Below are positions 26,401 to 28,594 of a stretch of DNA of 64,000 nt, piece after piece (within the stretch, counting starts at the first letter, position 1; every line of letters starts with the position of its first letter). The notes below the pieces were generated by a model, which saw nothing but the letters and a program-made list of their open reading frames with translations, searched no databases and was not told where the DNA came from. This stretch comes from Branchiostoma lanceolatum (Eukaryota; Chordata; Leptocardii; Amphioxiformes; Branchiostomatidae): NCBI RefSeq assembly GCF_035083965.1, contig NC_089732.1, positions 2,710,883-2,774,882 of the forward strand, written 5' to 3'. A program made the translations under genes and the position numbers.

Positions 26401-28594
26401 AACATCCTTTAAAAGCGGACACCCTCCCACATCTCACTCGCCAAACTAGGAAGCGATTCGTCGGGTCATGGTTGATTCAAGTCTGAGTTTGAAAGAAGTC
26501 GATTGGTGAAAAAGTCTACCTTAGTCCCTAGAGTGCCTGGCGTGAAGGCGGTGCCGCTCTGCGTGATGGCGCGGCGGAACAGGCCGGCGTTCAGGGGGCA
26601 CAGGAGGTGGTGTATTACGCCGAAGCGCGGGTATATACTGGCTATACAGATAAAGATACTGGTACAGATACAGATGAAAAGTCTACCTTAGTCCCTAGAG
26701 TGCCGGGCGTGAAGGCGGTGCCGCTCTGCGTGATGGCGCGGTGGAACAGGCCGGTGTTCAGGGGGGACAGGAGGTGGAGACTGACGGAGATCCCGCCAGC
26801 CGACAGACCAAATATGGTCATTCTAAAGGGAAAACAGTGCTGTTTTTTTTAGGTGACAACACTGTTAGTGACAACAGTTTCTTTAGTCAACAGTGTTGTC
26901 ACCTACCGACGTCTTGGTGGATCGTCTTTTAAACATTATGTGCCCTTGGGATACACAACTTTCCTCACTCCAGCCAGGTATTACCTGACTTAGGATCACT
27001 TAGGCTGGGGAGGTAATAGCCGTGGCAACATTAGTACTAAGGGCGTTTTTGCTCGAAATTAATATCAATATCAAGCAAAAACGCCTTTCGTTAATCGCCA
27101 CGGCCAGGAGGTAAAAAGGCAGTGGAAGGAGAGGGATGGGCTCGGCCCTCCAATACCGTGTCCTAGACACAGGGGATAACAACCCACTGCCCCTGCGGCC
27201 TCAAAAAGAGCTATGGGACTGCCTTGATCATTTCTACCCAATGAACCAATTGAAGAGATGGAGGAAAACGCAAAGTCACCTGTTGACGTCCCCGCCGAAG
27301 CTGGCGATGTTCTCCTTTACCCAGATGATCGCCAGTCTCTGGTCCAGGAGACCCAGGTTTCCAGGTGCATGCTGGTCCCCCGTTCCCAGGAAGCCAAACG
27401 CGCCCAGTCTGGAGTAGGAACCACAAAAAACATTTCTCATAATTTGTTCATTCCAACTTATAGCCACATGATAATATAGGAAATATACAAAATATGTGAG
27501 GTCTTTCTATTTGTCAATTTTAGTCACAATCAACAATGATACTATCCATCGTTACCTGAAAAATAGTAGACAACGACGGAAAATAAGATTAAACATATTG
27601 ATTTTGAGATCTTTTGAAAGGTCAATATTCAAGGTCAGTATGTCCTTCACAACCTGTAGTTCAAGGTCACCACGATGACGTTGTTCTCAGCGGCCAGCTG
27701 CGTCCCGTTGTTTTCGGAACCGGTTCCAACCTGCCATCCGCCGCCATGTATGTACACCATCACGGCTAGGGGGTCCTACAAGTACACACAAGGCCGACAA
27801 CTGCTGTGATTACCATGTATACACCACCACGGGTAGGGGGTCTTGTCAAGTACGAGCAATGCCGACAATGGTTCTGATAATCATGTATGTACAACATTAC
27901 GCTAGGGGGACCTGCTAAGAACTTGCAATAAACCTCCTCAGGACATCTCGGCTGGGGCTGCACACGTCTTTCGGAAGGGACGTAAATGACGGGGGTCCCG
28001 TGTTCGGGGAGGTGCTTCGAGCACGTTAAGGAAAAAGGCTAGCAACCCCTCCTTGTAAACATAAACCCTGCTACTGAAACAGCAAGGAAAATTGCTGCCC
28101 TATGCGCCACTAGACTCTACAAGGTCTGAACGAGCGAACGAACGAACAAACGAATGAACGATTCTTTCATTCATTCAATCACTCCTTCATTCATTCATTC
28201 CGTAAAGAGGAATCCCCACCGCAGCGTTTGTGGTCCTGACGGGTGCGTATACGTTCAACGCCAGGCAGTCTTCGCTCCACTGTCGGTCCGAGTTTAGAAA
28301 CGATTCCACAAATCCGGGGAGAAACATTTTCTCTTGAGGGCAGGCTGGTCCGAACGCCGTCGCCTCTCTGACTCCGTCCCAGGGCTCGGGCTCGACCGGC
28401 GGCATGAAGCGGAGGTCCCCCGTAGGTGGCTTGGCGAAGGGTACGCCCAGAAAGGCCCGTACGGGCACGCCGTCGTAGTCGGTCGTGACGCCAGAGAGTT
28501 GGCCGTATTTGGTGGGGACTGTCGGCTCCTGTGCCGTACAGGGTCCGGAAGATAGAAGCAAGAGAGAGAGCAGGAGGCTTAGAGGAGCGTCCAT
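23434..28594 (-). CDS. Type-B carboxylesterase / cholinesterase-like enzyme, probably GPI-anchored
   Basis: Alpha/beta-hydrolase fold esterase. Exons: 28220-28594, 27654-27775, 27280-27408, 26687-26822, 25107-25677, 24662-24788, 23969-24092 and 23434-23592; all phases agree, giving 580 aa. The start ATG at 28594 opens a signal peptide ([19 protein letters not shown]). Seen: [20 protein letters not shown], oxyanion loop IHGGG, nucleophile elbow FGLSAGG, probable acid Glu in MEGG, and catalytic His in GASHGEE. The elbow is GLSAG rather than the cholinesterase GESAG, and no Trp is visible at the choline-binding place before SEDCL, so acetylcholinesterase activity is unlikely. The last exon starts VFFWNY, the family's usual C-terminal FWN, then SGGAG and a hydrophobic run ([16 protein letters not shown]), as expected for a GPI signal. 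Failure to splice at 23968 would give a shorter form stopping at 23939. Substrate unknown. Confidence 0.9.
24243..24490 (+). mobile_element. tRNA-derived SINE, family 1
   Basis: Begins with a degenerate A box (tagctcaactcttaacagg) and has a B-box-like cggttcaatcctgggaagg, then the family-1 body (ggctagcaacccctccgtgt, actgaaacagcaaagaactt). It lies in an esterase intron, opposite to the gene. Confidence 0.8.
24919..24997. repeat. (CA)n microsatellite
   Basis: About 79 bp of uninterrupted AC dinucleotide in the esterase intron between exons 5 and 6. Long open frames running into it on the minus strand read through the intron and are not coding. Confidence 0.98.
26507..26610 (-). pseudogene. 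Duplicated 3' part of the esterase nucleophile exon
   Basis: A 104-bp stretch nearly identical to 26675-26777, i.e. the 3' part of exon 4 with its donor and the start of the next intron. It would encode [17 protein letters not shown] and onward, but it has no acceptor and lacks the catalytic Ser region, so it is not a complete exon. A retrotransposon tail (26611-26674) lies exactly between the two copies. Confidence 0.85.
26611..26674 (+). mobile_element. 5'-truncated retrotransposon tail flanked by long direct repeats
   Basis: The 64 bp read tgtattacgccgaagcgcgg, then a ctggctatacagata-like stretch and gatacagatacaga. This is the same 3' tail that ends the LINE fragment at 28772-29220. It is bounded precisely by copies of the esterase exon edge (26507-26610 and 26675-26777), as expected for insertion with a target-site duplication of about 103 bp. 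Confidence 0.8.
26850..26905. repeat. Perfect 17-bp inverted repeat next to an esterase acceptor
   Basis: taggtgacaacactgtt at 26850 is repeated in inverse complement ending at 26905, with a 22-bp loop. In the esterase transcript this hairpin ends 27 nt before the acceptor AG of exon 4 (26823-26824). The loop side contains CACTAAC on the minus strand, which resembles a branch point. It may also be a small MITE. Confidence 0.85.
26938..27228 (+). mobile_element. tRNA-derived SINE, family 2, 3' part, with a nested MITE
   Basis: The left part (tgtgcccttgggatacacaa, tttcctcactcc, gtattacctgactta) matches the family-2 body. The right part (ggagagggatgggctcggcc, gataacaacccactgcccct, gcggcctcaaaaagagct) is the inverse complement of the segment near 18400-18500. 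A 90-bp element (27017-27106) interrupts it. It lies in the esterase intron 3. Confidence 0.75.
27017..27106. mobile_element. 90-bp MITE nested in a SINE, 8-bp target duplication
   Basis: Ends are TAGCCGTGGC and GCCACGGCCA, and an inner inverted pair ggcgtttttgct / agcaaaaacgcc extends the hairpin. It is flanked by ggaggtaa on both sides (27009-27016 and 27107-27114). Confidence 0.85.
27930..28200 (+). mobile_element. tRNA-derived SINE, family 1, 5'-truncated
   Basis: Starts at caggacatctcggctggggc, runs through the family body, and ends in a (gaac)n/(gaat)n tail near 28130-28160. It lies in the first esterase intron, just next to the exon 1 donor at 28219. Confidence 0.8.

Follow-up and report, generated by a model that had tools for sequence, protein, structure and literature searches.

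How did the 3′ end of a retrotransposon come to lie between two copies of the edge of a catalytic exon, and what became of the exon? The question is raised by a carboxylesterase gene on the minus strand of the window – the 64,000-nucleotide stretch of the Branchiostoma lanceolatum genome (contig NC_089732.1) analysed here. The gene (23437..28594) has eight exons: exon 1 (28594-28220), exon 2 (27775-27654), exon 3 (27408-27280), exon 4 (26822-26687; 136 nt, its donor GT beginning at 26686), exon 5 (from 25677) and exons 6-8 (~24789-24661, ~24094-23966 and ~23592-23437), the last three placed by similarity only. Joining exons 1-7 gives a protein, short of one glycine, that matches Pfam COesterase (PF00135) at 503.4 bits, and membership of that family is indicated by the profile together with the G-x-S-x-G motif of exon 4, GLSAG, which we take to be the nucleophile motif with the predicted catalytic serine. 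Other Branchiostoma were compared through protein models, using the best 120 matches per search; among these the closest relatives, all Branchiostoma, are P0122 (CES2, B. lanceolatum; 96% identity over 74% of the query) and P0124 (B. floridae), with a second group comprising P0001 (CES4A, B. lanceolatum), P0123 (B. floridae) and P0121 (B. belcheri). On the gene strand the acceptor of exon 4 is preceded, at a distance of ~30 bp, by a perfect 17-bp inverted repeat (26850-26905).

The answer begins with the repeats. BLAST aligns the direct copies 26510-26610 and 26677-26777 with 97 of 101 columns identical (E 7e-41); four substitutions separate them, and over the full pair (26507-26610 and 26675-26777 in plus-strand coordinates) there is also one indel. 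A further 2-3 bp on the left side (TGAAAAAG versus TGAAAAG) bring the spare copy to 103-104 bp and the exon-proximal copy to 102-103 bp. Each consists of the 3′-most 91 nt of exon 4, the donor GT and ~12 intron nucleotides (~13 in the spare copy); the codon of the motif serine (~26801-26803) lies outside the duplicated block. The exon-proximal copy (26675..26777, minus strand) provides the last 91 nt of the working exon 4 with its donor and ~12 nt of intron, while the spare copy (26507..26610, minus strand), recognised by the repeat match and with a 30-residue open frame in its exon nucleotides (26520-26610), is found 167 nt downstream, in intron 4. Since the duplicated block starts within the exon and extends beyond the donor, exon 4 is made whole again by the exon-proximal copy. 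Between the two copies is the LINE-like 3′-end insert (26611..26674; plus strand, antisense to the gene), a stem-loop-like unit followed by an (ACAGAT)n tail. Two claims of the initial annotation are thus borne out: that a LINE-like 3′ end sits between flush direct repeats of ~103 bp (the insert abuts both copies), and that exon 4 is intact and continuous with 26675-26777, an extra piece being left downstream in the intron. With a flush direct repeat of more than 20 bp at either end of the insert, the locus has the form of a long target-site duplication.

The nature of the insert is best judged from a neighbour. Aligned to the reverse complement of 28785-28838, the insert (26611-26674/6) is 83.9% identical over 56 columns with two 1-bp gaps (E 7e-12). 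It had been described as exactly the 3′ tail of the neighbouring LINE; this is too strong, the identity of 84% making the insert a diverged copy within one tail family. The neighbour is a 5′-truncated LINE-like element (28776..29233, minus strand) of that family; its bounds, first given as 28772-29220, are better set at ~28780-29228. It has a candidate 6-bp target-site duplication, TTCCAA, at 29233-29228 and 28781-28776; when random pairs were searched in this way, 3.8% of them gave 6 bp or more. An open reading frame of 118 amino acids directly adjoins the 3′ end of the element and carries the motif WNSLPS, presumably a LINE-type C-terminal motif. In a protein search with this frame 11 of 12 candidates proved related, none of them informatively named, and the region has no match in Pfam at E 0.001, so that the LINE label rests partly on this motif.

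A tail profile built on six copies, the insert among them, returned 14 matches above the inclusion threshold (18 reported) at six places within the window: eight at 10.02-10.57 kb, two at 30.6 kb and one each at 26.6, 28.8, 29.85 and 50.5 kb. The insert scores 59.3 bits in this search, against a profile that contains it. A 26-base pattern taken from the tail matched nothing in viral contigs, among which amphioxus sequence would not be expected. Short tandem repeats at the 3′ end, an L2/CR1-like trait, are seen as (ACAGAT)n at 28.8 kb and in degenerate form in the insert. The available text of PMC4176376 describes, for stringent-type L2 LINEs, a 3′ stem-loop recognised by the element's own protein. 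Among single folds compared with shuffles, the 28.8-kb copy, the unit best preserved, forms a stem-loop (z -2.66) and the 10.4-kb copy reaches z -2.88 with a different pairing; the insert folds no better than its shuffles (z -0.39), and the same holds at 30.6 kb (z -0.57) and 50.5 kb (z -0.41). Across nine tail units 79.8% of cells pair, a figure equalled or exceeded in 10 of 500 shuffles; their covariation score is no better than that of shuffles (190/500), and RNAalifold retains 4 pairs. A stem-loop conserved by covariation is therefore not supported, the two of five single folds that stand out doing so in differing pairings.

At 10022-10570 the tail alone forms a tandem array, its eight profile matches – probably seven units, one of them interrupted – running head to tail in a single orientation, five of the eight from an identical profile position. 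Segments 10185-10230 and 10317-10345 look like the two halves of one interrupted tail unit; the interrupting sequence, 10231-10316, with its inverted ends (TAGCCTGGATACCAGACCCCCAA.. / ..TTGGGGGTCTGGCATCCAGGCTA), resembles an inserted hairpin of small size.

What kind of event could place such a tail so precisely? We consider it probable that both ~103-bp copies were made in one target-primed insertion with a long target-site duplication. Counting for a single insertion are the repeat match, the identity of the insert as a LINE-like 3′ end, its flush contact with both copies, the microhomology at the 5′ junction and the relative that lies behind the 118-residue frame. The microhomology is short (target GGAGGTGG versus LINE unit GAGCTGGTG); at the 3′ junction the tail ends ..ACAGATACAGAT and is followed directly by GAAAAG. 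In this scheme the sense strand of the gene would have been nicked first, ~12 nt past the start of intron 4. Only the terminal stem-loop-like unit and the hexamer tail would have been reverse-transcribed, and the end of the cDNA would have been joined to a nick in the opposite strand, 91 nt short of the end of exon 4. Fill-in would then have duplicated everything between nicks ~103 nt apart, leaving the second copy in intron 4 as an "echo" of the exon. Counting against it are the sibling at 28.8 kb with its candidate 6-bp duplication, the unremarkable fold of the insert and the lack of a match to a LINE profile.

Target duplications in the L2 and CR1 clades peak at 3-5 bp, as given in the available text of PMC4245944; set beside this usual length and the candidate 6 bp of the sibling, ~103 bp is exceptional, and the earlier view that it is unusually long for such elements stands. 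The insert thus departs from a 3-5-bp length that is typical of L2/CR1-like elements, not defining. Long duplications are nonetheless on record, though seldom produced in the cited assays. For the zebrafish element ZfL2-2 in wild-type DT40 cells, one of 25 classified insertions had a target duplication of 1228 bp, and about half of zebrafish ZfL2-2 copies show 5′ microhomology (PMC2666801, available text). The likeness lies in a LINE 3′ end between direct repeats of more than 20 bp – the L-TSD class of that paper – and in 5′ truncation and junction microhomology, both described there as common for that LINE; the difference is that here we have a natural copy, with a duplication of ~103 bp over an exon-intron edge, as against a single case of 1228 bp. 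R9 of bdelloid rotifers makes a target duplication of similar size (126 bp, from the portion of PMC6895275 at hand); R9, however, is specific to rDNA, as the title of that paper states, and the long duplication is a trait of the element, whereas here it concerns one copy of a dispersed family. Hebe has a target duplication of 7-12 bp (PMC2861651, in the part available), and the accessible text of PMC5802833 gives no target-duplication lengths for amphioxus LINEs. Literature searches of open-licence papers listed none on a LINE target duplication that had copied an exon edge. On the likeliest reading the event belongs to a class that is rare but known, and represents it in nature and across an exon-intron edge.

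Is the length then a habit of the tail family? Other copies of the tail within the window were assessed for flanking repeats: five loci were scored, the 10-kb cluster being left out and the 26.6-kb locus being preselected. At two of these five non-array loci (26.6 and 50.5 kb) the tail is flanked by local direct repeats with a score of at least 80, and the other three score 19-36; the background at that score is 19 of 901 window positions, five of the 19 belonging to the 26.6- and 50.5-kb loci themselves. At the second locus (50217..50723, strand not assigned) a tail at 50494-50555 is accompanied by older direct repeats, 50217-50494 and 50579-50723, whose gap-tolerant score of 97.6 compares with a best of 63.9 among 288 random pairs. 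These repeats are not flush: the 5′ repeat lies ~23 bp from the tail, and when the flanks are cut exactly at the tail the best alignment falls 42 and 56 bp away. Flanking repeats are thus flush at 26.6 kb, present without being flush at 50.5 kb and lacking at the other three loci, which suggests only weakly that the tail family habitually makes long duplications.

The same product would be expected if a staggered double-strand break, arising independently of the LINE endonuclease, had been filled in and LINE tail cDNA or RNA captured as filler, a course of events that we regard as unlikely. End joining is cited as often leaving direct repeats on either side of filler DNA (PMC3296678, available text), and the window holds local duplications of ~70-115 bp that lack LINE tails (58587-58781, 27744-27929 and 16336/16694). 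Yet what serves as filler here is no random internal fragment: it comes from the very 3′ end, and the hexamer tail stands at the junction where target priming would put it; moreover, in the same portion of PMC3296678 direct repeats surround 19 of 77 gained introns, which is not above the 26 of 100 for conserved ones. The intron-gain routes treated in that text – repair of staggered breaks and tandem genomic duplication – resemble our case in that a segment with a splice signal is duplicated; they differ in that our case adds an echo of an exon edge to an intron that was already there, with a LINE-like tail as filler.

The order of events could also be reversed, the exon-4 edge having been duplicated first, as in the paralogue CES4A (P0001), and the LINE tail having entered the junction later. 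In the annotated P0001 protein, exon 4 (..QSGSPFTPAFLGTK) is followed by SWSPVTPAFLGTK and later by a segment of 25 residues; residues 256-323 thus carry two further exon-4-edge segments after the full exon, and within the window the edge of exon 2 is likewise repeated with no LINE. The finding bears on the condition, set at the outset, that a duplication lacking the LINE tail would tell against the insertion: it is touched in part, there being exon-4-edge copies in P0001 with no recognisable LINE stem-loop-like stretch in the echo region, a comparison made in translation only. P0001 may, in addition, be a faulty gene model. A later insertion would have to be flush with both copies, and its coinciding with a repeat junction by chance is unlikely. 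The window copies are also closer to their own exon than are the paralogue copies, so that a shared old duplication would require gene conversion as well; the P0001 echoes, which resemble P0001's own exon 4 more than they do the window's copies, look like separate events or converted copies. We judge this order of events decidedly improbable. An assembly error or collapsed haplotypes can be all but set aside: although the copies differ by about 4%, near the allelic divergence of amphioxus, so that two haplotypes might be joined head to tail, such a join is not expected to leave a LINE tail at the very boundary of the two copies, around which no local direct repeat of greater length was found.

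Local duplication does arise by other means in the esterase gene, as exon 2 shows: its 5′ edge, acceptor included, forms a tandem repeat of 68-bp period in intron 1 (27744..27929, minus strand) that lacks a LINE tail. The proposal that LINE insertion is a route to exon-fragment duplication therefore holds as the likeliest account of the exon-4 copies; it is not the sole route, given the exon-2 edge and the CES4A copies. Elsewhere in the window a 99-bp tandem duplication, 96% identical and lacking a LINE tail, occupies 58587-58781. Direct repeats of 115 bp (16336-16450 and 16694-16808; 91% identical) flank 243 bp containing a dispersed repeat with further copies at 15092-15217 and 52003-52076, and an inverted repeat of ~950 bp (47104-48055 and 48568-49503) is 94% identical. 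A 39-bp minisatellite at 32692-34416 matches Rfam mir-2060 eleven times, raising the question of whether the family so named is satellite sequence or a large miRNA cluster.

If a single target-primed insertion with a long duplication made the spare copy, what has since become of it? The initial annotation called the piece dead, and this is not supported: its frame is open, its donor is intact and it has one internal acceptor that is in frame. Among the four substitutions, a serine-to-cysteine and a threonine-to-alanine change are derived in the spare copy and one is synonymous and unpolarised. At the remaining site the spare copy has arginine, as do P0122, P0124 and P0121, while P0001 and P0123 have histidine; since two orthologues, B. 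lanceolatum CES2 and the B. floridae protein, carry arginine, it is the working exon 4 whose histidine is likely to be the derived state. One-sided decay as the mark of a dead copy is accordingly rejected, one of the three polarisable changes having likely occurred in the working exon.

Splicing potential was assessed from the two donors and the AG sites between them. Use of the distal donor after the full exon 4 would retain 167 nt and meet a stop after 14 codons; the prediction is therefore that splicing keeps to the proximal donor. Of eight AG sites examined between the donors, one gives an in-frame exon, of 39 nt after a 128-nt intron: a predicted mini-exon of 13 residues (26520..26558, minus strand) that follows an internal CAG in the spare copy. 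The tail itself was considered as a splice acceptor and rejected, its three AGs in antisense giving introns of 28-49 nt and exons out of frame. The 13-residue SWSPVTPAFLGTK of P0001 begins at the same residue and in the same frame as the predicted mini-exon, that is, at the position of the only in-frame acceptor, and on this ground the spare piece may be spliceable. The B. floridae model P0124 starts inside exon 4, which could mean that an echo serves as its first exon or merely that the model is truncated.

A long target duplication laid over an exon-intron edge can keep a gene working while leaving in the intron an exon fragment with its own donor. It is a doubtful suggestion that the spare piece is a nascent cassette exon, LINE target duplications echoing exon edges together with their donors and yielding here the 39-nt mini-exon. 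Were it true, a second segment of 13 residues would be inserted just behind the catalytic serine region, and the gene family would be growing new mini-exons repeatedly, since the 13-residue echo is already present in the annotated CES4A protein. The parallel mini-exon in that paralogue is the lead most worth following: together with the locus described here, it offers a concrete route by which retrotransposition could seed new exons.
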